Of a DNA stretch of 64,000 bases, positions 11,816 through 52,619 are shown in pieces. This DNA comes from Mesorhizobium terrae (GTDB lineage Bacteria > Pseudomonadota > Alphaproteobacteria > Rhizobiales > Rhizobiaceae), in contig NZ_CP044218.1 of NCBI RefSeq assembly GCF_008727715.1, forward strand, positions 2,683,501-2,747,500, in the 5' to 3' direction. Within the stretch, counting starts at the first letter, position 1, and every line of letters begins with the position of its first letter. Position numbers and translations under genes: made by a program. A model generated the notes under the pieces. That model was not told where the DNA came from. It saw only the letters and a list, made by a program, of their open reading frames with translations, and did no database searches.

Positions 11816-11851
11816 CGACTTTCTCCGGTTCAATATCTGAATTTCTATTTC

Positions 11852-11863: not shown

Positions 11864-11910
11864 TTGCATCGTCCATGTATGCCCCTCTCAGCGGGATTTC
11901 AATGAAAAAT

Positions 11911-11922: not shown

Positions 11923-12159
11923 GAAAATTTTTTGGACGCGACTTCTGGCGCGAACCAACCTTGCCGGCTTGCCTGGCTTCAACACATTGAAAGGGCTGGG
12001 TAAAAAATGGCGCTCGTCAAAATCGTGTCGGCGGGCTCGGTTTGTCGCAGGGCGGCAATTTCCGGCGACTAACGCCGATGCGTCAAAAAACAGACGCGGA
12101 AACGGGCAGTTTGCGGATTTCTCCGGCAGCCGGCTTGGCGTTGCTGCCTGCTTCCTGTC

Positions 12160-32718: not shown

Positions 32719-33630
32719 ATGACCGATATCAGTCTTTCAGGACCGGCTGCTGCCGGAAAGATCGTACCGCCAGCACAGGCGCGGGCCATGCGGCTGCCCA
32801 CGCAATGGTTGGGCGTGGCGCCGTTCATCATCTTCGCGCTGATGTTCCTGATCCTGCCGACGCTGTATCTCATCCTCGGCGCGTTCCAGAACAGTGACGG
32901 TGCCGTCACGCTGGAAAACATCATCGAGCTGGCGCAACCGTCCATCGTCGCCGCCTATCTGATCTCCATCAAGGTTTCCGTTGCCTCGGCGCTTCTCGGG
33001 GCGTTTATCGGCCTTGCCATCGCGATCGCCATCGTGCGCGGCGGCCTGCCCAACTGGACGCGCTCGGCAACGCTCACCTTTTCCGGCGTGGCCTCGCAGT
33101 TCGCCGGCGTGCCGTTGGCCTTTGCCTTCCTGGCGACGCTCGGCCGGCTCGGCCTTGTCACCGTTTTCCTGCGCGCGCTTGGCTTCGACCCCTACCAGCA
33201 CGGCTTCAACGTCCTGTCCTTCTGGGGCCTGACGCTCACCTATCTCTATTTCCAGATTCCGCTGATGGTGGTCATCATCACGCCGGCCATCGATGGCCTG
33301 AAGAAGGAATGGGGCGAGGCTGCCGCGACCTTGGGTGCCACGCAGTGGCAGTACTGGCGCATGGTGGTGATCCCGGTGATCTGGCCGAGCTTCCTCGGCA
33401 CCGTGATCCTGCTCTTCGCCAATGCCTTCGGCGCCATTGCCACCGCCTATGCGCTGACCGGTTCGTCGCTCAATATCGTGCCGATCCTGCTCTATGCGCA
33501 GATCCGTGGCGACGTGCTGCACAATCCACATCTCGGCTATGCCATCGCTTTCGGCATGATCTTCATCACGGGCCTCGCCAATGTCTTCTACATCTGGTTC
33601 CGGACCCGTTCGGAAAGGTGGCTGAAATGA
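32719..33630 (+). CDS. ABC transporter permease
   Basis: The 303-residue protein has six membrane helices and the EAA loop EWGEAAATLGATQWQYWRMV, where the ATPase docks. LPTLYLILGAFQNSDG follows TM1. It is the first permease of the importer at 31548-35504 and overlaps the second permease by 4 bases (ATGA at 33627). Confidence 0.92.
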   Translation: MTDISLSGPAAAGKIVPPAQARAMRLPTQWLGVAPFIIFALMFLILPTLYLILGAFQNSDGAVTLENIIELAQPSIVAAYLISIKVSVASALLGAFIGLAIAIAIVRGGLPNWTRSATLTFSGVASQFAGVPLAFAFLATLGRLGLVTVFLRALGFDPYQHGFNVLSFWGLTLTYLYFQIPLMVVIITPAIDGLKKEWGEAAATLGATQWQYWRMVVIPVIWPSFLGTVILLFANAFGAIATAYALTGSSLNIVPILLYAQIRGDVLHNPHLGYAIAFGMIFITGLANVFYIWFRTRSERWLK

Positions 33631-34418
33631 AGTCGGGCAGATTCTGGGCCTGGGTCACTTTTATCCTCGGCGCCGCCTATTTCTTCATTCCGCTGATCGC
33701 GACCATGGAATTCTCCATGCGTATGCGGCGCGGCACCTATTCCTTCGACGCCTACAAGGTGGTTCTGGGCGACGAGCGCTTCCAGGCAACGTTCACCTTC
33801 TCGGTGCTAGCCGCGGTCTTCACCATCATCCTCGGTGTGCTGCTGGTCGTGCCAACCGCCTACTGGATCAGGCTACGCCTGCCGCAGCTCCGGCCGGTCG
33901 TCGAGTTCGTGACACTTCTGCCGCTGGTCATCCCGGCCATCGTCATCGTCTTCGGCTACATCCGCATGTATGGCTCGAACTCGCCGCTGCCGTTCCTGTC
34001 GAGCGACATGGGCACCAACGCGCTTCTGGTCATCGGCTATGCGACGCTGGCGCTGCCCTATATGTACCGCGCCGTCGACACCGGCCTCAGGACCATCGAC
34101 GTGCGCACGCTGACCGAGGCGGCGCAGATCCTCGGCGCCGGCTGGACCACCATCATCGGCCGCGTCATCCTGCCCAACGTGCTGATCGCGGTGCTGTCGG
34201 GCGCATTCCTGACCTTCGCCATCGTCATCGGTGAGTTCACCATGGCCAGCCTGCTCAACCGTCCGGCCTTCGGCCCGTATCTTCAGAACATCGGCGCCAA
34301 CCGCGCCTATGAGCCGGCGGCGCTTGCCATCATCGCCTTCGTCATCACCTGGGGCTGCATGTCGGTCATCCAGGTTCTGTCCCGTTTCGCGCCGAAATCG
34401 GCGAATCGCCCGAATTGA
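33627..34418 (+). CDS. ABC transporter permease
   Basis: The 263-residue protein begins MKSGRFWAWVTFILGAAYFF and has six TM helices with the EAA loop LTEAAQILGAGWTTIIGRV. It pairs with the upstream permease to form the channel. ATG overlaps the previous stop; the open frame continues far upstream but is only the alternative frame of the previous gene. The ATPase starts 21 bases later. Confidence 0.92.
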   Translation: MKSGRFWAWVTFILGAAYFFIPLIATMEFSMRMRRGTYSFDAYKVVLGDERFQATFTFSVLAAVFTIILGVLLVVPTAYWIRLRLPQLRPVVEFVTLLPLVIPAIVIVFGYIRMYGSNSPLPFLSSDMGTNALLVIGYATLALPYMYRAVDTGLRTIDVRTLTEAAQILGAGWTTIIGRVILPNVLIAVLSGAFLTFAIVIGEFTMASLLNRPAFGPYLQNIGANRAYEPAALAIIAFVITWGCMSVIQVLSRFAPKSANRPN

Positions 34419-34439
34419 GCCCGAGAAAGTCCTGAACCC

Positions 34440-35504
34440 ATGGCTGATCCGTTCCTTTCCATCCAGCATGTGAAGAAAGCCTTCGGCGCCACCACCGTGG
34501 TCGAGGACTTCAACCTCGATATCGCACGCGGCGAGTTTGTCTCGTTCCTCGGGCCTTCGGGCTGCGGCAAGACGACGGTGCTGCGCATGGTCGCCGGCTT
34601 CGAGGAGCCGACGGCCGGCCAGATCATCGTCGGCGGCAAGGATGTCACCCGGCTGAAGCCGAACCAGCGCAATGTCGGCATGGTGTTCCAGGCCTATGCG
34701 CTGTTCCCGAATCTTACCGTGGCGCAGAACGTCGCCTTCGGTCTCAAGGTCGCCGGCATACCGAAGGCTGACAGCGACAAGCGCGTCGCCGAAATGCTCG
34801 ACCTGATCAAGCTGCCGCAACTCGGCGACCGCTATCCCTACCAGCTTTCCGGCGGCCAGCAGCAGCGCGTGGCGCTTGCTCGTGCATTGGCGCCGAAGCC
34901 GAAACTGCTTCTGCTCGACGAGCCGCTGTCGGCACTCGACGCCAAGGTGCGCGTGTCGCTGCGCGACGAAATCCGCGCCATTCAAAAAGAGCTCGGCATC
35001 ACCACCATCTTCGTCACGCATGACCAGGAAGAAGCGCTGTCGATCTCCGACCGCATCGCGGTCATGTATGGCGGCAAGGCCGAGCAGGTCGGCGCGCCCT
35101 TCGAGATCTACAACCGTCCGGCCACCAAATTCGTCGCCAATTTCGTCGGTACCCTCAATGTGCTGGAAGGCGTGGTCAGCGATGCCGGTTCCGGCCGGGT
35201 GCGCATCAATGCCGAGGAAATCGGGCTTAAAGGTAAGTTGAACGGTTCCAAGACCGGTGACACGCTGTCGCTGGCGCTGCGCCCCGAGGCGATCGCGCTC
35301 GGCGAACGTCCCGGCAACGACGCCAAGCTCACCGGCGAAATCTCCGACGTGCATTTCCTGGGCTCGGTGATCCGGGTGCGGGTTGGCATCGGCCAGTCCA
35401 AGATTTCGCTCGACACCTTCAACAATTCCTCGACGCCGCCGCCGAATGTCGGCGACAAGGCCGAGATTTCATTCTCCTCCGGCGACGTGCTGGTTCTGCA
35501 CTAG
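34440..35504 (+). CDS. ABC transporter ATP-binding protein
   Basis: The 354-residue ATPase has Walker A GPSGCGKTT, Q-loop VFQAYALFPNLTV, signature LSGGQQQRVALARAL, Walker B LLLLDEPLSALD and H-loop THDQEEA. A C-terminal TOBE domain (about residues 260-354) is present, as in PotA/FbpC-type importers. It powers the permeases just upstream. No Shine-Dalgarno of note. Confidence 0.95.
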   Translation: MADPFLSIQHVKKAFGATTVVEDFNLDIARGEFVSFLGPSGCGKTTVLRMVAGFEEPTAGQIIVGGKDVTRLKPNQRNVGMVFQAYALFPNLTVAQNVAFGLKVAGIPKADSDKRVAEMLDLIKLPQLGDRYPYQLSGGQQQRVALARALAPKPKLLLLDEPLSALDAKVRVSLRDEIRAIQKELGITTIFVTHDQEEALSISDRIAVMYGGKAEQVGAPFEIYNRPATKFVANFVGTLNVLEGVVSDAGSGRVRINAEEIGLKGKLNGSKTGDTLSLALRPEAIALGERPGNDAKLTGEISDVHFLGSVIRVRVGIGQSKISLDTFNNSSTPPPNVGDKAEISFSSGDVLVLH

Positions 35505-35836
35505 GGCTGAAACGCCGCCGCTTCCATCCTTAGTGGGATGGGGCGGTGCGCACGGCGCAAAGACCAATTGTTTGGCTGTTTTGAATGCCACGCGCCCAGA
35601 GCCTGCGCAGGGCAGGCGTAGCTTTACGCGCCGTGTTTCGCCTTTATCTCAATCGATGGTGGGAAGCGACGGATCGCCATCGGCGGGTTCCTGGTCCAAG
35701 AATCCAGGCCTTGCCTGCCCATTGCCCGGCCTCTCGCGGCGGGTTATGCCTTCAATGAACCTAAGCCGGGTAACAGATTGCCGGCAAATCGGTTCTTCGA
35801 AGTGGGCACCATTTTCACGGCCGATCACGACACGCA
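35505..35836. other. 332-base intergenic region with no recognised gene
   Basis: It starts with a hairpin-like CTTCCATCC/GGATGG block (35521-35542) resembling the one at 28535, possibly a decayed extragenic repeat. The rest shows no gene, terminator tract or operator that I can defend. A 62-codon minus-strand frame divergent from the EamA gene exists but has no supporting features. Confidence 0.5.
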
Positions 35837-36682
35837 ATGAGCCTTCTGGTCTTCCTGGCGGTGCTGTCCGCCGCCGCCATGCATGCCACCTGGAACGCCA
35901 TGGTCAAGGTTCATCTCGACCGCTTCCTGTCGGTGACGGTGCTGACGCTTGGCATGGCGTCGATGGCGCTGGTGGCGGTGCCCTTCGTCGAATTTCCTCG
36001 GGCCGAGGTCTGGCCCTGGATCTTCGCCTCGACGCTCTTCCACATGGGCTACAAACTCTGCCTGATCGGCGCCTACAAGGCCGGCGATCTGGCCCAGACC
36101 TACCCGCTGGCGCGCGGTACCGCGCCCTTGCTGGCGGCCATTGGTGGCATCTTCGTTGTTTCGGAAATCCCGGGCACTTTGTCGATCGTCGGCATCGTGC
36201 TGCTCTGTGGCGGCACGCTGCTGATGTCCTTCCGCGGCGGCGCGCATCTGGAAAAGCTCAATCTGCGCGCGGTCGGTTTCGCGCTGGCGACGTCGGTGTT
36301 CATCGCCAGCTACACGCTGTCCGACGGCAGTGGCGCGCGCCTTGCCGCGACCGCGTCGAGCTATGCCGTCTATCTGTTCCTCTGCGACGGCATCTGGTCG
36401 CTGATCCTGTGCCTTCTGGTGCGCGGGCGGCAATCGCTGCCGGCGATGGCGCGCGACTGGAAGGCGGGCATCATCACCGGCTGTCTGAGCGGCACGGCCT
36501 ACTGGATCGTCATGTGGGCGATGACCAAGGCGCCGATCGCCTCGGTGGCGTCATTGCGCGAAAGCTCGATCCTGTTCGCCATGATGATCTCGGTCTTCGC
36601 GCTCGGCGAAAAGATGACGGCCTGGCGCGGCGCCGCGGCCTTGTCCATCGTGGCCGGCGTCATCGCGCTGCGCATGGGCTAG
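35837..36682 (+). CDS. EamA/DMT family transporter
   Basis: The 281-residue protein has ten membrane helices in two EamA repeats (about residues 1-135 and 145-281), with HATWNAMVKVHLDRF in the first loop and YPLARGTAPLLAAIGGIFV at the end of helix 4. DMT proteins export or exchange small metabolites. The N-terminal HAxWN motif resembles DMT members linked with phosphonate genes, but no such genes are here. It stands 332 bases after the ABC operon and converges with the Dabb gene. Confidence 0.85.
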   Translation: MSLLVFLAVLSAAAMHATWNAMVKVHLDRFLSVTVLTLGMASMALVAVPFVEFPRAEVWPWIFASTLFHMGYKLCLIGAYKAGDLAQTYPLARGTAPLLAAIGGIFVVSEIPGTLSIVGIVLLCGGTLLMSFRGGAHLEKLNLRAVGFALATSVFIASYTLSDGSGARLAATASSYAVYLFLCDGIWSLILCLLVRGRQSLPAMARDWKAGIITGCLSGTAYWIVMWAMTKAPIASVASLRESSILFAMMISVFALGEKMTAWRGAAALSIVAGVIALRMG

Positions 36683-36717
36683 TGCGCCGATCCGGACCGC
36701 TCTGAACATCTGCAGGC

Positions 36718-37035
36718 TCAGGCGCCGGCAGTCTCCAGATCGAACACCATCAGCCCGTCCGTGCCGCCGTCGAGCGCGGCGACCAGCCTCGCGCCGGCTT
36801 TCTGGTGCGCCTCATGCACCAGATAGGCGTCGCGGGCGGCGGCATCGCCGAAGTCGATGGTGAAGCCATGCGTGAAGCCGCGCGCGAAAGGCTCCGGACT
36901 GACATTGGCGCTGAAATGCACGGCGCCCATGCCATCGATCAGGCCGCGCAAAGCCGACAGGTCGGCATGGATCGCGGCGCGCTCCGTCGTCGATACGTCG
37001 GCACGGAATTTCACGAAGACGCAGTGGCGGATCAT
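36718..37035 (-). CDS. Dabb (stress-responsive alpha-beta barrel) protein
   Basis: The 105-residue protein begins MIRHCVFVKFRADVSTTER and has FTHGFTIDFGDAAARDAYLVHEAHQK, the Dabb ferredoxin-like fold. Such dimers can act as small enzymes or stress proteins, and often end catabolic operons. The start at 37035 follows the GMC gene by 13 bases. It is the last gene of the long LacI-type cluster. Confidence 0.85.
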   Translation of the reverse strand: MIRHCVFVKFRADVSTTERAAIHADLSALRGLIDGMGAVHFSANVSPEPFARGFTHGFTIDFGDAAARDAYLVHEAHQKAGARLVAALDGGTDGLMVFDLETAGA

Positions 37036-37048
37036 GGCTGTTTTTCCT

Positions 37049-38677
37049 TCACGCCGCGCGGTTGCCGGCAAAGACGGCCGGCGGCAGCGGCTCACGGCCG
37101 AGGATGATGTCGCCGCCTTTTTCACCAACCATGATGGTCGGTGCATTGGTGTTGGAAGAAGGCACGCGCGGCATGATCGAGGCGTCGCAGACGCGCAACC
37201 CCTCGATGCCGCGCACTTTCAGTTCCGGTGTCACCACCGCCATCGCATCATGGCCCATGCGGCAGGTGCCGACCGGATGATGATCGGTCTTGGCCGCACG
37301 GCAGGCATAGTCGGCAAGTTCGTCGTCGCTGGCGAGTGATGGGCCTGGCAGAACCTCCCGCAGCACATAGGGCTTCAGCGCGTTCTGGCGCATGATTTCG
37401 CGGGCAAGCCGCAGGCCCTTGATCGACATCTCGCGATCGTACGGGTCGGCCCAATAGTTGGGGTCGATCAGCGGCATGGCGGCCGGGTCGGCGCTGCCCA
37501 GTCTCACCGTGCCGCGCGAGCGTGGGCGCAGGAAAGCGGAATTCAGCGTCACACCCGGATTGTTCAGCTTCTCCACGCCGGCCTCGATGCCGGATCCCAG
37601 GCCGAGATGGAACTGGATGTCGGGATGGGACGCGGTCGGGTCGGCATACCAGAAGCCGCCTGTCTCGAAGAGGCTGGAGGCGACGGGTCCCTTCTTCAAC
37701 AGCACATATTGCAATCCGGCCCAGAGGGTGCGGTGGAATTTGGCGTAATTGTCATAGGTGTGATCGCCGGTACATTCGGCGATCACGAAGAGATCGAGGT
37801 GGTCCTGCATGTTGGAGCCGACGCCGGGCAGGTCGTGTAGCGGCGTGACGCCGACCGATTTCAGATGGTCGGCCGGGCCGATGCCCGATTGCATCAGCAG
37901 TTTCGGCGAACCGATGGCGCCAGAAGACACGATCACCTCGCGCTCAGCCCGCAGGATCTGCGGTTGGCCGCCGGGCTTGTCGACCACCTCGACGCCAACG
38001 GCGCGGCTGCCTTCCAGAACGATGCGCGTCACCAAAACGTCGGTGCGCACGGTGAGGTTCTTGCGGTCGCGGATCGGCTTCAGATAGGCGACCGAGGCGG
38101 AGGAGCGGCGCGCATCCTTCTGGGTCAGCTGGTAGTAGCCGACACCATCCTGCGCGGCGCCGTTGAAGTCGGGATTGAACGGGATGCCCATTTCCTGCGC
38201 GGCGCGGAAATAGGCCTCGCAGATCGGCAATGGCGAGATCGGATTGGAGACGCCGAGCGGGCCCTGGTCGCCGTGATAGTCGTTGGCATAACGCTGGTTG
38301 TTCTCGGCGCGCTTGAAATAGGGCAGCACGTCGCGATACCCCCAGCCGGCCAGCCCTTCCTCCTTTTCCCAGGCGTCGTAATCGCGGGCATTGCCGCGCG
38401 TGTAGATCTGCGCGTTGATGGAGGAGCCGCCGCCGATAACCTTGGCTTGGGTGTACCAGAACACGCGGTCCTTCATGTGTTTCTGCGGCACGGTCGACCA
38501 ACCCCAGGAAGCGATGCCCTTGGTCATCTTGGCGAAGCCCGCCGGCATGTGGATCAGCGGATGCCAGTCCTTGCCGCCGGCTTCCAGGAGCAGCACGGAA
38601 TTCGCCGGGTCTTCCGACAACCGGTTGGCGAGCACGCAGCCTGCAGGGCCGGCGCCGACGATGATGAAGTCGGTCAT
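37049..38677 (-). CDS. GMC oxidoreductase (choline dehydrogenase-like)
   Basis: The 542-residue flavoenzyme starts FIIVGAGPAGCVLANRLSED (FAD site), has VIGGGSSINAQIYTRGNARD and the GMC signature SSGAIGSPKLLMQSGIGP, and ends with HHPVGTCRMG and SNTNAPTIMVGEKGG, the catalytic His/Asn region. It oxidises an alcohol group, substrate unknown. It is preceded by the SDR (12-base gap). In this operon it may act on a sugar alcohol or glycoside taken up by the CUT1 importer. Confidence 0.9.
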   Translation of the reverse strand: MTDFIIVGAGPAGCVLANRLSEDPANSVLLLEAGGKDWHPLIHMPAGFAKMTKGIASWGWSTVPQKHMKDRVFWYTQAKVIGGGSSINAQIYTRGNARDYDAWEKEEGLAGWGYRDVLPYFKRAENNQRYANDYHGDQGPLGVSNPISPLPICEAYFRAAQEMGIPFNPDFNGAAQDGVGYYQLTQKDARRSSASVAYLKPIRDRKNLTVRTDVLVTRIVLEGSRAVGVEVVDKPGGQPQILRAEREVIVSSGAIGSPKLLMQSGIGPADHLKSVGVTPLHDLPGVGSNMQDHLDLFVIAECTGDHTYDNYAKFHRTLWAGLQYVLLKKGPVASSLFETGGFWYADPTASHPDIQFHLGLGSGIEAGVEKLNNPGVTLNSAFLRPRSRGTVRLGSADPAAMPLIDPNYWADPYDREMSIKGLRLAREIMRQNALKPYVLREVLPGPSLASDDELADYACRAAKTDHHPVGTCRMGHDAMAVVTPELKVRGIEGLRVCDASIMPRVPSSNTNAPTIMVGEKGGDIILGREPLPPAVFAGNRAA

Positions 38678-38689
38678 GGGATCATCCGT

Positions 38690-39451
38690 TCATAGTCTGG
38701 GCACCGACAGCGCACCGTCGACACGGATCACCGAGCCGGTGGCGAAGCCGAGCCTGCCACCCGCAAGAGCAGCGACCGCGGCGCCGATGTCGGCGGCCTC
38801 GCCCCAGCGCTTGGCCGGCACCAGCCCGCCCTCGATCAAGGCATCGTATTTGGAGGCCACGCCGGCGGTCATTTCCGTTCGGATGATGCCGGGGCGCACC
38901 TCGAACACGCCGATATTCTCCGGCGCCAACCGTAGCGCCAGCGTCTTTACCCACATGGCGAGGCCCGCTTTGGAGACGCAGTAATCCGCACGTTCGGGCG
39001 AGGCCATTTCGGCACTCACGGAGGTGACGGTGACGATCGATCTCGGATGATGCGGCGGCTGCGCCAGCATCGCCTTGGCGACGGCCTGGGTGAAGAAGAC
39101 CGTGCCGCGCAGGTTGACGTCGATCACCCGGTCGAAGTTTTCGGGCTTCAGCTCCAGCAGATCGCCGCGTACCACGGCGCCGATGCCGGCATTATTGACG
39201 AGGCAGTCGATGTGGCCGAAGGCGTCGAGCGCGGTCTCGATCACCGCCGGGTGGTTGGCGAGATTGGCGATGTCGCAGCGGCGATAGGCAAGCCGCGCGC
39301 CGCGTAAGCCGACGCTTGCGGCCAGTTCCGGGCTTGGCTCGGGGGTGAGGTCGGCGGCGGCGATGTCGAAGCCAGTTTCGGCAAGCGCGTTGGCGCAGGC
39401 GAGGCCAATGCCGCGATTGGCGCCGGTGACGATGGCGACGGGACGGGTCAT
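38690..39451 (-). CDS. Short-chain dehydrogenase/reductase
   Basis: The 253-residue SDR has TGANRGIG, CLVNNAGIGAV, VTSVSAEMAS and the catalytic DYCVSKAGLAM, ending TGSVIRVDGALSVPRL. It resembles 3-oxoacyl/3-ketosugar reductases often found beside GMC enzymes. ATG at 39451 overlaps the stop of the upstream GMC gene, so the two are co-translated. Confidence 0.9.
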   Translation of the reverse strand: MTRPVAIVTGANRGIGLACANALAETGFDIAAADLTPEPSPELAASVGLRGARLAYRRCDIANLANHPAVIETALDAFGHIDCLVNNAGIGAVVRGDLLELKPENFDRVIDVNLRGTVFFTQAVAKAMLAQPPHHPRSIVTVTSVSAEMASPERADYCVSKAGLAMWVKTLALRLAPENIGVFEVRPGIIRTEMTAGVASKYDALIEGGLVPAKRWGEAADIGAAVAALAGGRLGFATGSVIRVDGALSVPRL

Positions 39452-40947
39452 GCCTTCAACTCCGTCTTGCGAATATGGTCTGCTACCCTCAGCGCCTGCG
39501 CGGCGATGGTCAATGCCGGGTTGACGGCGGCGGAAGTCGGCAGGAAACCGCCGTCGACGACGAACAGGTTGCCGTGATCCCAGGCACGGCAGAAGGTATC
39601 GAGCGGGGACGTGGCCGGGTCGCTGCCCATGCGGACCGTGCCGCACTGGTGCGAGGGCGTGCGCTTGTCGAATGGCCTGGACAGCACGATCGGATAGCCG
39701 CAGGCGCGAAAATGCTCGCGCATCACCTGGGTCAGCCGGTCGAGCGCTTGCATGTTGCTGCGGCGCCATTGCAGGACGATGTCGTTGCCGTCGACCATGA
39801 CGCGGCTTTCGGGATCCGGCAGGTCTTCGCACATCAGGTACCAGTCGACCGCATGGCTGGCCATGAAATCGAGCGCGAATTTTGGCGCTAGGCGGACATT
39901 GGCCTTCAGCATGGTGCCGTCGATCTTGCCCAGAAGCTGGACATTGCCGAGCGGCTTTCCGCCCTTGCCGTCGGAGAGGTAGTAGTCGTTCAGCATCAGC
40001 GTCTTCTGGTAGACGCTGTCGTTTCTGCGGCGCGGATCGATCGCCAGCATGGCGGCCGAATTGTGGTTCATGAAATTGCGTCCGACCTGGTCGGAACGGT
40101 TGGCGATGCTCTTGCCGCCGGGCGCCGGTGAACGCAGCAGGATGACAGCGGAGTTGATGGCGCCGGCCGACAGGACGACCAGTTTCGGCGTGACGCGCTT
40201 GGCCTCGCCGTTGCGGTGATAGTGTACGGCGGCGACCGTCTTGCCGCCGGGCGTCAGTTCGAGATGGTCGACAGCGGCTCCCGTTTCGAGGCAGATGTTG
40301 TTGTCGGCCAGCGCGACCGGAAGCGGGCCGGTCTCGGCATCGATCTTGCCGATGCCAGTGTTCGGGAAAGCGTCCCACGGCGTCTTTCCATCCCGCAGCC
40401 AGGCATCGATATCGACGCCGAGCGGCAGCGACGCGGGATTGAGGCTGATGCCCTTCAACTCGGCGCGGGCGCGCGCGATTGCCGGCTCGTCCGGCACCGG
40501 CGGGAAGGCGTAGGGTACGGAATGAAAAGGCTCTGTCGGGTCCTCGCCGAGCCTGCCGCGCACGCGGAACAGTTGCTCGGCTTTCGAATACCAGGGTTCC
40601 AGTTCTTCATAGCCGAAGGGCCAGGCTGGCGAGATGCCGCCGAAATGCTCCATCGCCGCGAAGTCTTCGCGCCGGTAGCGGATCAGCACCGCGCCATAGA
40701 ATTTCGAATTGCCGCCGACATAGTAGTAGTTGCCGGGGTTGAAGGGCTGGCCACCGGCCTCTCGCCACATCTCCTTCGGCCGGTAGTGGCCGTCGACGAA
40801 GATCGAGCGGCTGTCGCGTGCATGCGCGGTCGCAGGCAACTTCTCTCCGCGCTCGAGGATCAGCACCGAGGCGCCGCTTCCGGCCAAACCGGAGGCGATC
40901 GTGGCGCCGCCGATGCCGGAGCCGATGATGACGATATCGGGAGACAT
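39448..40947 (-). CDS. GMC family oxidoreductase
   Basis: The 499-residue FAD protein starts DIVIIGSGIGGATIASGLAG, has YYYVGGNSKFYGAVLIRYR (covering the flavin) and ends VDGGFLPTSAAVNPALTIAA. It is closer to glucose/cellobiose-type periplasm-independent GMC enzymes than to choline dehydrogenase. RTPSHQCGTVRMG contributes the active-site His. It overlaps the SDR and lies 9 bases after the ATPase gene, so it could oxidise the imported sugar. Confidence 0.9.
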   Translation of the reverse strand: MSPDIVIIGSGIGGATIASGLAGSGASVLILERGEKLPATAHARDSRSIFVDGHYRPKEMWREAGGQPFNPGNYYYVGGNSKFYGAVLIRYRREDFAAMEHFGGISPAWPFGYEELEPWYSKAEQLFRVRGRLGEDPTEPFHSVPYAFPPVPDEPAIARARAELKGISLNPASLPLGVDIDAWLRDGKTPWDAFPNTGIGKIDAETGPLPVALADNNICLETGAAVDHLELTPGGKTVAAVHYHRNGEAKRVTPKLVVLSAGAINSAVILLRSPAPGGKSIANRSDQVGRNFMNHNSAAMLAIDPRRRNDSVYQKTLMLNDYYLSDGKGGKPLGNVQLLGKIDGTMLKANVRLAPKFALDFMASHAVDWYLMCEDLPDPESRVMVDGNDIVLQWRRSNMQALDRLTQVMREHFRACGYPIVLSRPFDKRTPSHQCGTVRMGSDPATSPLDTFCRAWDHGNLFVVDGGFLPTSAAVNPALTIAAQALRVADHIRKTELKA

Positions 40948-40956
40948 GGTTGCCCG

Positions 40957-42072
40957 CTACGCAATCCGTTCCTGGGTCGCCGGATCGAAAAACACCGCCT
41001 TGGTCAGATTGAAGGTCAGCGGCGCGGTGGTGCCCGGCTTGATGCGCGCGTCGGCGCGCAACCGCGCCACCACGCCCTTGCCGCCCAGATTGGTCACCGC
41101 GAAAGTATCGGAGCCGGCCGGCTCCACCACCTCGATGTGACAGTCCGCCGTCACCAGATGGGTGGCGTTGCGGTCGGCGCCGTCCGGATCGGTCAGCGCT
41201 TCGGGGCGGATGCCGAACATCACCTGCTTGCCACGATAGGCCGACAGCCCTTGCGGCGCGCCGTTCAGCGCAAGAGACACCGGTGCCGAACCGTTGCGGG
41301 CAAGCTCGACGCTGAGCTGGTTGCCGGTTTCCCCAATGGTGGCCGGCACCAGGTTCATGGCCGGCGAGCCCATGAAGTCGGCAACGAACATGTTGACCGG
41401 GTTGTTGTAGATCTCCTCCGGAGTACCGAACTGCTGCAGGATGCCGTCCTTCAACACTGCGATCTTGGTCGCCAGCGTCATCGCCTCGATCTGGTCGTGG
41501 GTGACGTAGACGATGGTCGTCTTCATGCGGTGGTGCAGGCGCTTGATCTCGGTGCGCATGTCGATGCGCAGCTTGGCGTCGAGATTGGACAGCGGTTCGT
41601 CGAACAGGAAGACCTGCGGCTTGCGCACCAGGGCGCGGCCCATGGCGACGCGCTGGCGCTGGCCGCCGGAAAGCTGGCTCGGCTTGCGGTCGAGCAGGTG
41701 GCCGATCTGCAGCAATTGCGACACATCGGCGATCGCCTTGTCGCGTTCCGCCTTGGCGATGCCGCGGATTTCCATGCCGAAGCCGATATTCTCGCCCACG
41801 GTCATGTTGGGATAGAGCGCGTAGGACTGGAACACCATCGCGATGTCGCGCTTCGACGGGTGCAGGTCGTTAACCCTTTTGCCGGCGATGCGGATTTCGC
41901 CGCCGGTGATCTGCTCCAGCCCGGCTATGGTGTTGAGCAGAGTGGACTTGCCGCAGCCGGACGGGCCGACCAGCACCAGGAAGCCACCTTCCTCGATGCC
42001 GAGCGTCACCCCTTTGAGGATTTTGGTGGCGCCGAAGGACTTTTCGAGATTGTCGATCTCAAGAAAGGGCAT
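40957..42072 (-). CDS. Sugar ABC transporter ATP-binding protein (UgpC/MsmK-type)
   Basis: The 371-residue ATPase has GPSGCGKST, VFQSYALYPNMTV, LSGGQRQRVAMGRALVRKP, FLFDEPLSNLD and VTHDQIEAMTL. The C-terminal OB/TOBE region (about 235-371) is that of CUT1 carbohydrate importers. It overlaps nothing but lies 6 bases after the permease gene. Confidence 0.95.
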   Translation of the reverse strand: MPFLEIDNLEKSFGATKILKGVTLGIEEGGFLVLVGPSGCGKSTLLNTIAGLEQITGGEIRIAGKRVNDLHPSKRDIAMVFQSYALYPNMTVGENIGFGMEIRGIAKAERDKAIADVSQLLQIGHLLDRKPSQLSGGQRQRVAMGRALVRKPQVFLFDEPLSNLDAKLRIDMRTEIKRLHHRMKTTIVYVTHDQIEAMTLATKIAVLKDGILQQFGTPEEIYNNPVNMFVADFMGSPAMNLVPATIGETGNQLSVELARNGSAPVSLALNGAPQGLSAYRGKQVMFGIRPEALTDPDGADRNATHLVTADCHIEVVEPAGSDTFAVTNLGGKGVVARLRADARIKPGTTAPLTFNLTKAVFFDPATQERIA

Positions 42073-42078
42073 TGTATC

Positions 42079-42960
42079 TCAGCCTTTCACGGCGCCGGCC
42101 ATCAGGCCACGCACGAAATAGCGTCCGGAGACGATGTAGACGATGAGGGTAGGGAGCGCCGCCAGGATCGCCCCGGCGAAGTGGACGTTGTATTCCTTCA
42201 CGCCCGTCGAGGAGTTGACCAGATTGTTCAGCGCCACGGTGATGGGAATGGAATCGACGCTGGAGAAGGACGAACCGAACAGGAAGTCGTTCCAGATGTT
42301 GGTGAATTGCCAGATCACGGTAACCACGATGATCGGTCCCGACGACGGCAGGAGGATGCGCCGGAAGATCTGGAAGAAGGATGCGCCGTCGATCTGCGCC
42401 GCCCGCACCAATTCGGTCGGGAAGGCCTCGTAGTAGTTGCGGAAGAACAGCGTGGTAAAGCCGAGGCCGTAGATGGCGTGGATCAGGATCAGGCCCGGCA
42501 CCGTTCCGGCGAGGCCGAGCAGGCCGAGGATGCGGGCCGACGGAATCAGCACGATCTGGAAGGGGATGAAACAGGCCAGAAGCATCATGCCGAAAACGAT
42601 GTTGTCGCCCTTGAAGCGCCATTTGGTCAGCACGTAGCCATTCAATGCACCGAGGATGGTCGAGATCGCCACCGCGGGCACCACCATCATCACCGAGTTC
42701 AGGAAATAGGGTTTCAGCCCGGTCGGCGAGACGCCGATTTGCGCCGTCGACCAGGCCGACAGCCATGGCGCGATCGTCCATTGCTGCGGCAGCGCCAGCA
42801 TGTTGCCCTGGCGGATCTCCTCCAGCGGCTTCAGCGAGTTTACCAGCATTACGTAGAGCGGCAAAAGATAGTAGACCGCGAAGACGATCAGCAGGGCGTA
42901 GATCAGGGCACGGACAAAAATGCCGTTGCGGGTGGCGACGTCCTGGGAGGGGGCGCTCAT
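42079..42960 (-). CDS. Carbohydrate ABC transporter permease
   Basis: The 293-residue MalG-type permease has six TM helices and the EAA loop ELVRAAQIDGASFFQIFRRI. The N-terminus (RALIYALLIVFAVYYLLPLY) is typical. Its start overlaps the upstream permease stop (ATGA, 42957-42960). Confidence 0.95.
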   Translation of the reverse strand: MSAPSQDVATRNGIFVRALIYALLIVFAVYYLLPLYVMLVNSLKPLEEIRQGNMLALPQQWTIAPWLSAWSTAQIGVSPTGLKPYFLNSVMMVVPAVAISTILGALNGYVLTKWRFKGDNIVFGMMLLACFIPFQIVLIPSARILGLLGLAGTVPGLILIHAIYGLGFTTLFFRNYYEAFPTELVRAAQIDGASFFQIFRRILLPSSGPIIVVTVIWQFTNIWNDFLFGSSFSSVDSIPITVALNNLVNSSTGVKEYNVHFAGAILAALPTLIVYIVSGRYFVRGLMAGAVKG

Positions 42961-43874
42961 TTCTTCTTCCCCCCGAGTTCGGAGTAGAGATAGGGCACGA
43001 TGATGGCGAAGATCATCATCATCATGATGATCGCCGAGGCCGCGCCCATGCCCATCTCGTTGCGGCCGAAGGTGAATTTCTGCATGAACAGCGCCGGCGT
43101 CCAGGTGGCTGTACCCGGGCCGCCATCGGTCATCGCCACCACGAGGTCATAGGACTTGATGGCAAGGTGGGCGAGCACCACGAAGGCCGACAGGAAGACC
43201 GGGCGCATCAGCGGAATGATGATGCGGCGGTAGATGGTCATGGTCGAGGCGCCGTCGATCTGGGCGGCCTTGATGATCTCGTTGTCGACGCCGCGCAGGC
43301 CGGCGAGGAACATCGCCATGACAAAGCCGGACGACTGCCAGACGGCAGCAATCACGATGGTGTAGATCGCCATCTTGCCGTCCTTGATCCAGCGGAACGA
43401 AAAGCTTTCCCAGCCGATCGACTGCATGACGTGCTCGAGGCCGATGCCGGGGTCGAGGAACCATTTCCAGGCGACGCCGGTGACGATGAAGGACAGCGCC
43501 ATGGGGTAAAGATAGATGGGGCGCAGCAGGCCTTCGCCGCGGATTTTCTGGTCGAGGAAGATGGCAAGCGCCAGGCCGATCACCGAGCAGACGACGATGT
43601 AGAGGATCGAGAAGATCGCCAGGTTCTGCAGCGCCGTGATCCAGTTGGGATGGTTGAACAGGCGCACATAGTTATTGAGCCCGACCCAGGTCGAGAAATC
43701 CGGCAGGAGCTTCGAACCCGAGAAAGAGAGCACGGCCGTGAAGGCGATGAAGCCGTAAACGAAGATGAGGATCACGGCGAAGCTCGGCGCCAGCACGATC
43801 TTCGGCAAGAGGTCTTGCAAGGTGGCGCGCGGATTCGCTGCAGCAGCACGCGCGGTCATGGTGGCGTCGGCCAT
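42957..43874 (-). CDS. Sugar ABC transporter permease
   Basis: The 305-residue MalF-type permease has six TM helices and the EAA loop EIIKAAQIDGASTMTIYRRI. A short basic N-terminus precedes TM1 (KIVLAPSFAVILIFVYGF). It follows the binding-protein gene by 69 bases containing a hairpin. Confidence 0.95.
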   Translation of the reverse strand: MADATMTARAAAANPRATLQDLLPKIVLAPSFAVILIFVYGFIAFTAVLSFSGSKLLPDFSTWVGLNNYVRLFNHPNWITALQNLAIFSILYIVVCSVIGLALAIFLDQKIRGEGLLRPIYLYPMALSFIVTGVAWKWFLDPGIGLEHVMQSIGWESFSFRWIKDGKMAIYTIVIAAVWQSSGFVMAMFLAGLRGVDNEIIKAAQIDGASTMTIYRRIIIPLMRPVFLSAFVVLAHLAIKSYDLVVAMTDGGPGTATWTPALFMQKFTFGRNEMGMGAASAIIMMMMIFAIIVPYLYSELGGKKK

Positions 43875-43903
43875 GGGTTCAGCCCCGGTTTATTAAAGAG
43901 TGG

Positions 43904-43927
43904 GTGCCTCGACCGGAGCCGAGGCAC
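43904..43927 (-). terminator. Hairpin between binding protein and permease
   Basis: GTGCCTCG (43904-43911) pairs with CGAGGCAC (43920-43927) around an 8-base loop, 16 bases past the binding-protein stop. No long T tract. As at 32668, it probably lowers expression of the permeases relative to the binding protein. Confidence 0.5.
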
Positions 43928-43943
43928 TGCGTTTCAGACGCTA

Positions 43944-45203
43944 TCAGCCCTTCGCGGCGGCAACTGCTTCAGCCAGTGCCTTGGCGGCGGCCTTGGAGTC
44001 CAGCTCGCCGTTGAAGTGGCGGGTGATGACGTCATACATGGCGTTCTTCACCGCCGCCGGCACTGCATAGCCGTGAGCCATGGAGCCGAACAGCTTGCCC
44101 GAGGAGTTGGCTTCCGCCAGGTCCTTGATGCCCTTCTTGCCGCAATCGTCGAAGGCGGTGTCCGGCACGTCGGTGCGCGCCGGCACCGAGCCCTTGACCA
44201 CGTTGAAGGACGACTGGAAGTCCGGGCTCTCGATGTCGGATGCCATCGTGAGCTGCCCGGCCTTCTTGTCGTCGCCGACCTTGAACATCATGAACATGTC
44301 GGAGTTGAAGGTGACGGCGCCTTGCGTGCCCGGGAAGCGGATGCAGACGAAGTCGGTACCAGGCTTCTGCTTGGCCTTGAGGAACTCGCCCTTGGCCCAG
44401 TCGCCCATCATCTGCATGCCGGCCTTGCCTTCGATGACCATGGCCGAGGCAAGGTTCCAGTCGCGGCCGGAGAAGTCCTTGTCGACATAGCTCTTCAGCT
44501 TGGCCATGCGGTCGAAAGCCTCGACCATCTTGTCGCCGCCAAGAGCCTTGGGATCGTTGTCGATAAACGCGGCCTTGTAGAAGTCGGTGCCGAGCGAGAG
44601 CACGACTGCGTCGAAGATGGTGGCGTCCTGCCAGGCCTGGCCGCCATGGGCGAGCGGGGTGATGCCGTTGGCCTTCATCTTGTCGAGCACGGCGATCAGT
44701 TCGTCCCAGTTCTCCGGCACCTTGCCGCCAGCGGCATCGAGTGCCTTCTTGGAGATCCAGACCCAGTTGGTCGAGTGCACGTTGACGGGTGCCGCGATCC
44801 ACTTGCCGTCGTGCTTAGCGAAGTTCTGAAGGGCCGTCGGGATGACCTTGTCCCAGCCTTCCTTGTTGGCCACATCGCCGAGATCGCCGACCACGCCCTG
44901 CTTGGCCCAGTCAGTGATGTCGAAGCCTAGCGCCTGCACGGCGGTCGGCGGGTCACCAGCGGTGACACGGGCGCGCAGCGCGGTCATGGCGGCTTCGCCG
45001 CCGCCACCGGCCACGGGCATGTCCTTCCAGGTGATACCCTGGCTTTCCAGCTTCTTCTTCAAGACGTCGAGCGCGGCGGCCTCGCCGCCCGAGGTCCACC
45101 AGTGCAGCACTTCGACCGAGCCGCCAGCGGCATAGGTCGATGCGGTATAGCCGACGGTAAGCGCCGAGCCGAGCATCGTTCCGATTAGCAGTTTGCGCAA
45201 CAT
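43944..45203 (-). CDS. Sugar ABC transporter substrate-binding protein
   Basis: The 419-residue SBP_bac_1 protein has a signal peptide ([20 protein letters not shown], cleaved near YAA) and the mature motif [20 protein letters not shown]. This resembles glucose/mannose-type binding proteins (GtsA, AraN-like) of CUT1 systems. GGGAGGTAGTAC precedes the ATG. The ligand is likely a mono- or disaccharide or sugar derivative; identity is unknown. Confidence 0.92.
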
Positions 45204-45258
45204 GTACTACCTCCCTTGTTGCAGTCACACGACCGGCTATCGCCGGCTACCTCCCAAC

Positions 45259-46773
45259 TCAGCTCGCCCACCACCCGGTGCGCGGGCCGCGATGAAACTG
45301 GATCGTTTTTTCCTCGGTGTAATCCTCGACGGCGCGCCTGCCCAATTCGCGCCCAAGCCCGGATTGCTTGTATCCACCGAAAGGCAATTCCGGATAGCCT
45401 TCCATGAATGTGTTGACCCAAACGGTGCCCGAACGCACGCCGCGCGCCACCGACATGCAGGTATCGATATCGGCGCTCCAGACGCCCGCAGAAAGACCAT
45501 AGGGCGTGTTGTTGGCGATATGCAATGCCCTTTCAATCGTTTCAAAAGTCAGCACCGAAAGCACCGGTCCGAACACTTCCTCGCGGGCGATGGCCATGTC
45601 TTCCCTGACGCCGCTGACGATGGTCGGCGCCAGATAATCGCCGGCGCTGGAGGCGAGCTTCACACCACCTGTGGCCAACTTGGCGCCTTCGCTGGAGGCG
45701 GCGCCGACATAGGCGGTGACCTTGCCGAGATGGTCCGGCGAGATCATCGCGCCGACCTTGGTGCGGTCGTCGAGCGGATCGCCGACGGTGACCTTGGCGG
45801 TCAGCGATTTCACGGCTTCGAGGAAGTCGTTGGCGATCGCTTCATGGACGATCAGGCGCGAGCCGGCGTTGCAGCATTCGCCCGCATTGAAGAAGCCGCC
45901 GAACACGGCAGCATCCGCCGCGGCCTCGAGATCGGCATCGGGGAAGACGATCTGGCCGTTCTTGCCGCCGAGTTCCATCGACACCTTCTTCAGCGAATTG
46001 GCGGCGGCCGCCATGGTCATCTTGCCGACGCGGGTCGAGCCGGTGAAGGAGACCATCTCGGCCAGCGGGTGCGAAACCATCGGCGCGCCGACATCGGCGC
46101 CGAGGCCGGCAAGGATATTGACGCCGCCGTCCGGCAGGCCGGCCTCCATCAGCAGGTCGCCGAGCAAAAGGGTCGAGGCCGAGGTCATTTCGCTGGGCTT
46201 GACCACCGCGGTGCAACCGGCGGCGAGCGCGAAGGGCAGTTTCTGGCTGACGATGAGGAAAGGGAAGTTCCAGGGCGTGATGATGGAAACGACGCCGACC
46301 GGCTCGCGTAGCACGACGCCCAGCATGGCGTCGCCCAGATTGGCGTAGGACTCGCCGGAAAGCGTGCGGGCAAGGGCTGCCGAATAACGCCAGATGTCGG
46401 CCGCGCCGGCGATCTCGCCGCGCGCCTGGGCGATCGGCTTGCCGGATTCCAGCGCTTCGAGCCTGGCGATGTCTTCCAGCCGGGAGTCGATGAGGTTGGC
46501 GGTCTTCAAAAGCAGGGCAGCGCGCTCGGCCGCCTTCATGCGTGGCCACGGCCCGCTCTCGAAAGCCTTGTGGGCAGCCAACATCGCTGCCTCGACCTCG
46601 GCCTCGCCGGCCTGCGCATACCGCGAAACGACAAAGCCGTGGCCGGGCGAGCGACGCTCCAGCGTGCGGCCGTCGCGTGCATCGACATGTTTGCCGCCGA
46701 TCAGCAGCTTGTAACCCTTCGGCGCGACCGAGGCCTCAGAGGGCATTTTGATGTTCAGCGGGGCATTCATCAT
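45259..46773 (-). CDS. Aldehyde dehydrogenase
   Basis: The 504-residue ALDH has SIITPWNFPFLIVSQKLPFA, SFTGSTRVGKMT, MELGGKNGQIVFPDADL with the general-base Glu and NAGECCNAGSRLIVHEA with the catalytic Cys. The C-terminus PFGGYKQSGLGRELGRRAVE is typical of betaine-aldehyde-like ALDHs. Two ATGs stand in tandem (46773 and 46770); AGGACGACA favours the first. It lies 7 bases after the enoyl-CoA hydratase gene. Confidence 0.92.
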   Translation of the reverse strand: MMNAPLNIKMPSEASVAPKGYKLLIGGKHVDARDGRTLERRSPGHGFVVSRYAQAGEAEVEAAMLAAHKAFESGPWPRMKAAERAALLLKTANLIDSRLEDIARLEALESGKPIAQARGEIAGAADIWRYSAALARTLSGESYANLGDAMLGVVLREPVGVVSIITPWNFPFLIVSQKLPFALAAGCTAVVKPSEMTSASTLLLGDLLMEAGLPDGGVNILAGLGADVGAPMVSHPLAEMVSFTGSTRVGKMTMAAAANSLKKVSMELGGKNGQIVFPDADLEAAADAAVFGGFFNAGECCNAGSRLIVHEAIANDFLEAVKSLTAKVTVGDPLDDRTKVGAMISPDHLGKVTAYVGAASSEGAKLATGGVKLASSAGDYLAPTIVSGVREDMAIAREEVFGPVLSVLTFETIERALHIANNTPYGLSAGVWSADIDTCMSVARGVRSGTVWVNTFMEGYPELPFGGYKQSGLGRELGRRAVEDYTEEKTIQFHRGPRTGWWAS

Positions 46774-46780
46774 TGTCGTC

Positions 46781-47546
46781 CTAGCTCCGCGAAAAAGCGG
46801 GCTTCTGTTTGGTTCGGAAGGCGGAGACACCGGCCTTCAGGTCTTTAGTCAGCGCGATGAAGCCGCTGGCCAGCGCCTCGGTCGCGGCGGCGGTTTCCTC
46901 GCCTTCGGCAACGGCGATCATCAGCTTGGCGGCCTCGGTGGCCAGCGGTCCGCGCTCGGCGATCTTTGCGGCCCAGTTTTTAGCTTCTGCCAATGCCTCG
47001 CCGGTAGCTGCCACGCGGTCGACAATGCCGAGCGCAAGCGCGTCGGTCGCCGCAAAGACCTCGCCACCCAGCGCCATGCGCCGCACTGCCTGGGCGCCGA
47101 AGCGGCGCACGGCGCGCTGCGTGCCGGACCAGCCGGGCACGACGCCGATCGAGGTCTCGGGAAAACCGAGCTTCGCTTGCGTTTCCGCGACACGGAAATC
47201 GCACGCGGCGGCAAGTTCCAACCCGCCGCCCAGCGCATGACCGGACAACACCGCGATGGTGGGCTGCCTGAGGCGCGCCAGTCGGTCGAAGACACGATGG
47301 CCATAGCGCACCCACTGAACCTGGAAATCGGCGGCGCTCATCGCCGCCCAGGCATCGACGTCGCCGCCGGCGCAGAAACCCTTGCCTTCACCGCACAGGA
47401 GCACGACGCGCACGCTTTCGGCAGCCTCAGCTTCGTCCAGCGCTTTTTCCAGCGCCCGCAGCATCGGGATATCGAGCGCATTGAATTTTTCGGGCCGCCT
47501 CAGCGTGACAATGCCGATCGCGCCTTCAGCCTGGAATGTGACGAGT

Positions 47547-47554
<8 letters not shown>
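46781..47554 (-). CDS. Enoyl-CoA hydratase/isomerase
   Basis: The 257-residue crotonase-family protein has the oxyanion-hole stretches LLCGEGKGFCAGGDVDAW and VLSGHALGGGLELAAACD, and FPETSIGVVPGWSGTQRAVR with the catalytic Glu. It overlaps the CoA-transferase stop by 8 bases and likely hydrates an enoyl-CoA from the pathway. An open frame upstream of the ATG lies inside the transferase and is not used. Confidence 0.92.
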
Positions 47555-51273
<3,719 letters not shown>

Positions 51274-51422
51274 CACAATCGATCGGAGGCGTCAATCGGA
51301 ATTGTTCATGGAGTATGATGAATATGGAAACCCAAGGCAGTATGCGGATATACGACTTAATTCGTTGTGCGTCGCAGCAAAATTTTGTGCGCTGCCACGA
51401 ATCGTAAATCTTCTTGATTTAT

Positions 51423-51434
51423 TGGAACGTTCCA
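51423..51434. promoter_or_regulatory. LacI operator candidate 2
   Basis: TGGAACGTTCCA is a perfect palindrome 31 bases upstream of the DUF993 start (51465), about 163 bases from site 1. It lies where a repressor would block the divergent promoter. Confidence 0.75.
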
Positions 51435-51464
51435 TTTATGGCGAAACTCAAGGGAGCGAGCATC

Positions 51465-52619
51465 ATGGACATCATCTTGCCAGTGGAGGATGGTCGCCGG
51501 GCGTCATACCGCCTTATTGGTCGGCCGGTCGAAGCCGTGGCGGGCGCGCGATTTCCGCGCATCGCCTATGCCGCCGCCCATGTCGTCGCCGACCCGCTCG
51601 CGATGTCCGATCCCTGGTCGAAACCGGTCGTCGACTGGGACCGCACGATGGCGTTCCGCCATCATCTGTGGCGTCTCGGCTTCCGCATCGCCGAGGCGAT
51701 GGACACATCCCAGCGCGGCATGGGTTTCGACTGGAGCAGTGCCAGGGAATTGATCCGCCGCTCGATCGTGGAAGCGCGCACGGTGGAGGGTGCCGATCTC
51801 GCCTCGGGCGCTGGCACGGATCATCTCGAGGTCCGCGCAGGGCTGACGTTGGACGACATCATTGCTGCCTATGAGGAGCAGTTCGGCTTCATCGAGGGCG
51901 AGGGTGGCAAGGCGATCATGATGGCCAGCCGTGCGCTGGCGGCAACTGCAAGAAGCGCGGACGATTACGCAAAAGTTTACGACCGTGTTCTCTCGCAGGC
52001 CTCCGGCAAGGTCATCCTGCATTGGCTGGGCGACATGTTCGACCCGGCGCTGAAGGGCTATTGGGGCGCGGACAACTTCGAAAACGCGCTAGATACGGTT
52101 GTCGCCATCATCGAGCGCCATGCCCACAAGGTCGAAGGCATCAAGATCTCGCTGCTTGACGCCGACAAGGAGGTCGCGCTGCGCAACCGTCTGCCGGACG
52201 GGGTCGTCATGTTCACCGGCGACGATTTCAACTATCCCGAACTGATTGCGGGCGACGGCCACCGTCATTCGCATGCGCTGCTCGGCATCTTCGACGCGAT
52301 CGCGCCGGTCGCCAATTCAGCGCTTGCCAGATTGGCCGCCGGCGACCGCGCCGGCTATGACGCGCTGATGGCGCCGACGGTGCCTTTGTCGCGCAAGATC
52401 TTCGAGGCACCGACCGAATATTACAAGGCCGGCATCGTCTTCATGGCCTGGCTGAACGGTCATCAGGACCATTTCACCATGGTCGGCGGCATGCAGTCGG
52501 CGCGCGGCATCTGCCATTATGCCGAGGTGTTCCGGCTGGCCGACCAGGCCGGGCTGCTGGCTGATCCCGATCTTGCTGTCTCGCGCATGAAAAGTCTGTG
52601 CGCAGTGGCCGGTATCTGA
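51465..52619 (+). CDS. DUF993 family protein, DHDPS-like aldolase
   Basis: The 384-residue protein has the class I aldolase-like TIM barrel of DUF993, which belongs with dihydrodipicolinate synthase. HKVEGIKISLLDADKEV contains the probable Schiff-base Lys (K227), followed by MFTGDDFNYPELIAGDGHRH and SHALLGIFDAIAPVANSALA. It probably cleaves or condenses a keto-sugar acid, as in rare-sugar catabolic clusters. ATG at 51465 has AAGGGAGCGAG before it; ATG at 51438 lacks one. It is the only plus-strand gene of the regulon. Confidence 0.85.
   Translation: MDIILPVEDGRRASYRLIGRPVEAVAGARFPRIAYAAAHVVADPLAMSDPWSKPVVDWDRTMAFRHHLWRLGFRIAEAMDTSQRGMGFDWSSARELIRRSIVEARTVEGADLASGAGTDHLEVRAGLTLDDIIAAYEEQFGFIEGEGGKAIMMASRALAATARSADDYAKVYDRVLSQASGKVILHWLGDMFDPALKGYWGADNFENALDTVVAIIERHAHKVEGIKISLLDADKEVALRNRLPDGVVMFTGDDFNYPELIAGDGHRHSHALLGIFDAIAPVANSALARLAAGDRAGYDALMAPTVPLSRKIFEAPTEYYKAGIVFMAWLNGHQDHFTMVGGMQSARGICHYAEVFRLADQAGLLADPDLAVSRMKSLCAVAGI

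Follow-up and report, generated by a model that had tools for sequence, protein, structure and literature searches.

The 64,000-nucleotide window analysed here (Mesorhizobium terrae, contig NZ_CP044218.1, positions 2,683,501 to 2,747,500) contains a run of 13 minus-strand genes extending from 51225 down to 36718 and a divergent gene encoding a DUF993 protein, which makes 14 genes in total. A first-pass annotation had described a thirteen-gene minus-strand LacI-type set with a divergent DUF993 gene, in which neighbours overlap or lie within 70 bases. This description was borne out, as the families were all clear in Pfam and NCBIfam scans and, with start positions corrected, neighbouring minus-strand genes either overlap by 4-8 bases or are separated by 6-69 bases. 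The 14 genes form one LacI-type unit; a division into separate operons was considered and set aside, the largest gap being 69 bases. The genes, and two putative operators in the gap between lacI and the DUF993 gene, are as follows.

36718..37035, minus strand: Dabb protein (stress-responsive A/B barrel), 105 amino acids; PF07876, 64.7 bits
37049..38677, minus strand: GMC1, choline-dehydrogenase-like FAD alcohol dehydrogenase; PF00732/PF05199
38690..39451, minus strand: short-chain dehydrogenase/reductase (SDR) oxidoreductase; NF009386 (PRK12745), 359.7 bits, cut-off 250
39448..40947, minus strand: GMC2, FAD sugar dehydrogenase-like; closest PDB relatives are sugar oxidoreductases
40957..42072, minus strand: ABC importer ATPase; PF00005, OB_MalK and TOBE_2
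42079..42960, minus strand: ABC importer permease 2; PF00528
42957..43874, minus strand: ABC importer permease 1; PF00528
43944..45203, minus strand: monosaccharide-binding protein, glucose/galactose-binding type
45259..46773, minus strand: aldehyde dehydrogenase (ALDH); PF00171, 543.8 bits
46781..47554, minus strand: enoyl-CoA hydratase/hydroxyacyl-CoA dehydratase (CoA, coenzyme A); PF00378
47547..49157, minus strand: YdiF-type CoA-transferase, alpha-beta fused; 372 bits to YdiF 2ahu
49154..50170, minus strand: 1,5-anhydro-D-fructose reductase (AFR) ortholog, Gfo/Idh/MocA family; 482.7 bits to 2glx
50167..51225, minus strand: LacI-family regulator; PF00356 and PF13377
51260..51271: putative LacI-type operator upstream of lacI, TGGAACGTTCTA
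51423..51434: putative LacI-type operator upstream of the DUF993 gene, TGGAACGTTCCA
51465..52619, plus strand: DUF993 protein; PF06187, 605.4 bits

The Gfo/Idh protein is, judged by its sequence, an ortholog of a characterised enzyme, AFR. The two AFR structures, 2glx and 4koa, were matched at 482.7 and 470.7 bits, respectively, and the next kind of protein at 113 bits; 229 of 330 residues aligned with 2glx (69.4%) are identical. The motifs EKPLA (from residue 94) and VHDADT (from residue 180) are the same as in 2glx, and the EKP lysine and VHD histidine motifs presumably hold the AFR catalytic residues. The AFR label is already attached to this protein in one public record. Inositol dehydrogenase and xylose dehydrogenase were rejected for this gene, as the NCBIfam scores of 144-145 bits are far below the cut-offs of 350-355, against 483 bits for AFR. 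The orthology is a clue that was overlooked in the first-pass annotation. Because an AFR ortholog occurs together with a glucose-type binding protein, the anhydrosugar class can be named, and the earlier statement that the substrate is unknown was too general.

Linkage and conservation of the AFR gene

Within the window, the AFR gene sits inside the operon with a 4-base overlap with each neighbour. When 151 genomes of the family were searched (E ≤1e-80), AFR was found in 32 genomes, at 33 places. Surrounding sequence was fetched for 31 of these places, the remaining two being the window's own and the main copy in G012, which is also clustered. Among the 31, the CoA-transferase gene adjoins AFR in 30, the hydratase, ALDH and GMC1 genes were each found in 29 and the DUF993 gene in 28. 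Two of these places, L164 and L190, are short contigs. At L192 an AFR paralog (48%) lies among other genes elsewhere, and the stretch at L183 includes neither the ALDH gene nor the importer, with no replacement sugar importer identified there.

Four further places (L204-L207) came from a wider sampling of the class (385 genomes), and in L204 the AFR gene is clustered and next to the CoA-transferase gene. A search from the CoA-transferase in 398 genomes of the phylum yielded 10 places outside the family, of which nine were fetched; the AFR and CoA-transferase genes adjoin in six of these (L211-L216) and not in L208-L210. One of the six, L211, comes from a different class of the same phylum. No AFR was found at E 1e-30 in any of four Mesorhizobium genomes that lack DUF993, and DUF993 was absent from the three genomes with AFR outside the cluster (G279, G548, which is 83% complete, and G549).

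The whole cluster was also compared within the genus, where 29 clusters were fetched from 32 genomes with a main DUF993 copy. Twelve of the 14 genes are present in all 29, and AFR was found in 27. Dabb was found in 26 and missed in three, of which one, L062, is a contig end. The same order was seen, as far as the stretches reach, in other genera including Rhizobium sp., in other families and in one genome of another class. This conservation is far beyond chance. A glycerate kinase gene is located downstream of the cluster in six of 31 family loci, and was also found in the Peteryoungia cluster (MOFRL and DUF4147 domains) and in L208, a related DUF993/CoA-transferase/hydratase cluster.

The exact sequence TGGAACGTTCYA occurs twice in the whole 6.02-Mb, two-contig genome, counting exact matches only, and both copies are in the lacI/DUF993 gap. 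In relatives, all 118 distinct gaps between divergent lacI and DUF993 genes (86 Mesorhizobium-type loci and 32 others, duplicates removed and the window itself not counted) contain one or more sites of the form TTGGAWCGWTCYWW, and 111 contain two or more, compared with none in 11,800 base-shuffled gaps. Other operator-like sites in the window, at 4976 and 20220, are weaker and at chance level, with four window sites at ≤2 mismatches against 2.06 expected. As the operator pair is unique in the genome and kept in the gaps of relatives, the simplest interpretation is a single local regulon dedicated to this unit. A regulator with predicted palindromic operators at its own and at the divergent promoter was thus found, the arrangement looked for in a LacI-regulated catabolic operon. 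The alternative of separate operons for unrelated compounds appears disfavoured by the gene order kept across many genera and the single operator pair in the genome. The position of the second operator also bears on the start of the DUF993 gene: it falls inside the extra stretch of a longer frame starting at TTG 51414, and in 29 of the 32 main copies from the genus the alignment begins no earlier than residue 12-18 of that frame, so the ATG at 51465 is the likelier start.

A candidate route for 1,5-anhydrosugars

The importer is predicted to be a monosaccharide importer of the glucose-binding type. Among solved structures, its binding protein is closest to 4r2b (73% identity; title 'with bound glucose'), and the next five named structures were also glucose-binding proteins, some solved with galactose. 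The best PDB relatives of GMC2, which carries the motifs HQCGTVRMG (from residue 433) and NPALT (from residue 476), are FAD glucose dehydrogenase (110 bits), fructose dehydrogenase and pyranose oxidases. GMC1 scored 601.5 bits against NF002550, the choline dehydrogenase subfamily, slightly below the cut-off of 605. The CoA-transferase matches YdiF (2ahu, 372 bits) over residues 5-525, that is, over its full length, and the glutamate of its EQGAVGG motif is aligned with that of EtGpiGG in YdiF, presumably the active-site residue of a class I CoA-transferase. For the hydratase, the best PDB relative is the 3-hydroxypropionyl-CoA dehydratase 5zai, and both glutamates (in GGGLE and PE), which are presumed to be catalytic, are aligned with 5zai and 9qwv. 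These assignments support the earlier view of a unit for sugar uptake and oxidation with CoA-type enzymes under LacI.

The solved relative of the DUF993 protein is SMc04132 (4dnh), titled hypothetical protein, and no papers were found for 'DUF993' or '4DNH' in the open-licence PMC library. A structural model of the protein, which is poor, matched 4dnh first and then mostly dihydrodipicolinate synthase (DHDPS) and N-acetylneuraminate lyase (NAL) enzymes, with some sugar isomerases, suggesting that DUF993 may be a DHDPS/NAL-like TIM barrel. K227, the lysine of a GIK motif, is invariant (13 of 13) and weakly aligned with the DHDPS Schiff-base region. The Pfam DHDPS family (PF00701) was not matched, only PF06187 being reported at E ≤0.001, and a protein search was uninformative, the 120 proteins listed being 84-100% identical. 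The aldolase-like character given to DUF993 in the first-pass annotation is therefore weakly supported, by DHDPS/NAL-like matches from a poor model.

The best explanation of the unit is that it would be a LacI-controlled aerobic catabolic operon for 1,5-anhydro-D-fructose (AF) and probably 1,5-anhydro-D-glucitol (AG). AF is a relative of glucose without the anomeric hydroxyl, and an anhydrohexitol ring cannot open by itself. In the proposed route, the importer would take up the 1,5-anhydrosugar, GMC2 would oxidise AG at C2 to AF, and AFR would reduce AF to 1,5-anhydro-D-mannitol in an NADPH-dependent step. GMC1, acting on the C6 primary alcohol, and ALDH would then oxidise C6 of anhydromannitol to the acid, and the CoA-transferase would form the C6 thioester. 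As the C4 hydroxyl is now beta in the CoA thioester, a 3-hydroxyacyl-CoA dehydratase could remove it, and loss of this hydroxyl by the action of the hydratase would give a 4,5-enol ether. Hydration and opening of the enol ether, a step for which no enzyme is named, would yield 2-keto-3-deoxy-D-gluconate (KDG), which DUF993 would cleave to pyruvate and D-glyceraldehyde. The latter could enter glycolysis as D-glycerate via glycerate kinase. Ring opening would in this way depend on activation with CoA in place of the absent anomeric hydroxyl. Fischer bookkeeping leads from anhydromannitol to D-KDG (and D-glyceraldehyde) and from anhydroglucitol to the L-threo isomer. That only the manno form gives D-KDG would explain a reductase that makes the manno epimer, the probability of a chance fit being 1 in 2.

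It is fairly likely that the substrate is an anhydrosugar of the AF/AG type, and the chances are about even that 1,5-anhydrosugars are the substrate class and the cluster is one pathway, taken jointly. The outline of a route via CoA, elimination and KDG is put forward only tentatively. The complete aerobic route for AG and AF, with C6 oxidation, CoA loading, ring opening to KDG by a beta-oxidation-type dehydratase and a DUF993 aldolase, in effect a 'beta-oxidation of a sugar ring', is doubtful as a whole.

AFR was reportedly described in the AF catabolism of Sinorhizobium morelense by Kuhn, Yu and Giffhorn in 2006. That system is alike in its orthologous reductase, its Rhizobiaceae-type host and its first step from AF to 1,5-anhydromannitol. 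However, a 2025 review gives as the next step in aerobic Rhizobiaceae a C1 hydroxylation that turns anhydromannitol into mannose, catalysed by a P450-like enzyme not yet identified, and states that no corresponding oxidative pathway has been described for AG (PMC12441222). The earlier statement that no described pathway has this exact enzyme set thus stands in part: none was found in the open-licence PMC library, but the first step, from AF to anhydromannitol in Rhizobiaceae, is described in the same review. The anaerobic gut pathway for AG and anhydromannitol outlined there, with phosphorylation by a phosphotransferase system and the glycyl-radical enzyme YbiW/PflD (PMC12441222), has the same kind of substrates and must likewise break the ring ether, but differs in its phosphorylated intermediates and oxygen-sensitive radical enzyme. 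A pyruvate formate-lyase-like protein was found in none of the 32 AFR genomes, including that of the window (control matches were obtained in three of 14 known genomes), and this anaerobic route would therefore not be available here, since it needs a glycyl-radical enzyme.

The uronate-lyase/alginate route runs through a 4,5-unsaturated uronate and 4-deoxy-L-erythro-5-hexoseulose uronate (DEH) to KDG. It is similar in that beta-elimination at C4-C5 beside the C6 carboxyl leads to a 2-keto-3-deoxy acid, whereas in the present scheme a CoA thioester would supply the acidity, a crotonase-type hydratase would act and C1 is without an anomeric hydroxyl. Oxidative deoxyribonate catabolism, which uses CoA-dependent cleavage and the beta-keto-acid cleavage enzyme DUF849, also brings an oxidised sugar acid into CoA metabolism, but DUF849 is not among the Pfam matches of the 14 cluster genes. 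If the proposed route is correct, the cluster would supply the genes for a pathway of which, in the literature consulted, only the first enzyme, reported in 2006, is known, a mechanism for opening a sugar ring that has no free anomeric carbon, and a function for DUF993, whose structure 4dnh is titled hypothetical protein. In glycogen storage disease Ib and in G6PC3 deficiency, neutrophils accumulate a toxic metabolite for which AG is the precursor.

Evidence against the route and alternative explanations

Several observations weigh against the anhydrosugar route. The published mannose step contradicts it, unless mannose is a side product, and the relatives of the binding protein were solved with glucose or galactose, never with an anhydrosugar. 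AFR genes also occur outside the cluster, in L205, in L206 on a 3.3-kb contig and in L207 as a 47% relative in another setting. AFR is missing from two of the 29 Mesorhizobium clusters (L051 and L062), with none elsewhere in those genomes (E 1e-30), and from the stretches of the largely complete clusters L217, L209 and L210, where the search did not extend to the rest of the genome. At L218 (~3900-4040), the same genome place as L051, an AFR remnant remains in which the first residues are joined directly to the last, an internal deletion in an otherwise complete cluster. GMC2 is kept in all five AFR-less clusters (L051, L062, L209, L210 and L217), which argues that it is not simply the partner of AFR, contrary to the first two proposed steps. 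No SDR was seen in the L209 and L210 stretches either, and SDR and Dabb have no firm role in the scheme.

The DUF993 model, with a pLDDT of 59.5, is too poor for an active-site reading, and the profile match to DHDPS is weak (E 0.056, probability ~1%). Genomes G363 and G786 lack DUF993, and in G127 and G888 the gene is unlinked. If KDG is the intermediate, a genome could do without DUF993, because other enzymes can use KDG, although this is admittedly a rescue argument. Glycerate kinase was found in only two of the 12 family stretches that reach at least 1.8 kb beyond GMC1; the cluster in the window is without it, and the genome has one MOFRL gene elsewhere.

The published role of AFR would accommodate some of these points. 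AF would be converted via anhydromannitol to mannose by an oxygenase encoded elsewhere, and the rest of the cluster would degrade a different sugar derivative, with AFR as a passenger or sharing an inducer. The mannose route is stated in the review, which cites Kuhn et al. 2006 (PMC12441222), some clusters have no AFR, and in L205 the AFR gene stands by itself. P450 genes are present in all 32 AFR genomes, a further point against the anhydrosugar route, although their presence throughout does not discriminate between the explanations. However, a passenger is not readily reconciled with a gene that overlaps both neighbours by 4 bases within the operon and has the CoA-transferase gene as its neighbour at 30 of the 31 family places and in L211. 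No P450 match was found in the fetched family AFR stretches or in the window, and the same review describes the C1 oxygenase as unidentified (PMC12441222), although the enzyme could be encoded elsewhere. This explanation is considered unlikely. The clusters without AFR, or without AFR and SDR in the stretch (L209 and L210), could also reflect a broader range of blocked pyranosides or glucose derivatives, such as glycosides and C-glycosides, degraded by the same CoA-dependent elimination, with AFR turning 2-keto sugars into manno sugars and AF being one of several substrates. Importers that are swapped or doubled between clusters and the resemblance of GMC2 to several sugar oxidases are in keeping with this, but no glycoside hydrolase was found among the genes adjoining the cluster (product names in three annotated records), and the nearest solved relatives of the importer bind monosaccharides, making such a range quite unlikely.

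DUF993 might instead act on a cyclic 2-keto-3-deoxy compound formed by a dehydratase, rather than as a KDG-type aldolase, which would allow for a cyclitol-like ring as the substrate. DUF993 occurs in the absence of this importer in Erwinia, Paracoccus yeei, Paraburkholderia and L052-L056, together with a Gfo/Idh protein, a xylose-isomerase-like (AP_endonuc_2) protein or both. The Erwinia and Paracoccus yeei sets have both proteins, with a glycerate kinase gene nearby, and the Paraburkholderia set has the xylose-isomerase-like protein, a major facilitator superfamily (MFS) importer, a CoA-transferase (41%) and a shikimate-dehydrogenase-like protein. However, these DUF993 proteins, which share 56-62% identity with that in the window, come from stretches in which neither an AFR nor a GMC2 ortholog was seen, and are therefore probable markers of other pathways. 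The importer in the window is also of the sugar type. A cyclitol-like substrate is thus improbable. In Sagittula and L058/L059, DUF993 is accompanied by CoA-transferase, hydratase, GMC1, ALDH, an acyl-CoA dehydrogenase and a xylose-isomerase-like protein. It may be conjectured that the theme in these other settings is a dehydrating module that makes a 2-keto-3-deoxy unit, which DUF993 cleaves. Degradation of the polyethylene-glycol type was also considered and rejected, as GMC and ALDH fit but the sugar importer does not.

Variation between clusters and neighbouring genes

The importer genes in the window have a different pattern of relatedness. The binding protein and permeases (42079-45203) share 84-94% identity with their counterparts from other genera (clusters L163, L168 and L172) but only 59-66% with those of the 29 Mesorhizobium clusters, the enzymes of which are 72-92% identical to those in the window. 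From these identities, the binding protein and permeases look to have been exchanged. The CoA-transferase in the window is 74-76% identical to those of Mesorhizobium and 88-90% to those of L150 and L164. In clusters outside the family, second importers are located directly upstream of AFR, one of the ribose type in L214 (3568-8326) and one of the SBP_bac_1/8 type in L212 (3104-7900). Among the SMc loci, smc04396 is presumably the ortholog of the binding protein and SMc04400 that of AFR; smc04396 is reported as dextrin-induced in one paper, and neither point was given weight in the interpretation.

In L207, the AFR-like gene (47%) lies near DHDPS-family, ALDH-like and GMC-like genes (6814-12400), and perhaps belongs to a parallel pathway in which a conventional aldolase takes the part of DUF993. 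Before the cluster in the window, a plus-strand ABC system occupies the region 33309-36705, with a permease gene at 33309-34418 and an ATPase gene at 34440-35504, followed just before the cluster by a reading frame of 440 residues that matches no Pfam family. Downstream of the DUF993 gene, a gene for a Fic-domain protein is located at 55163-56338.

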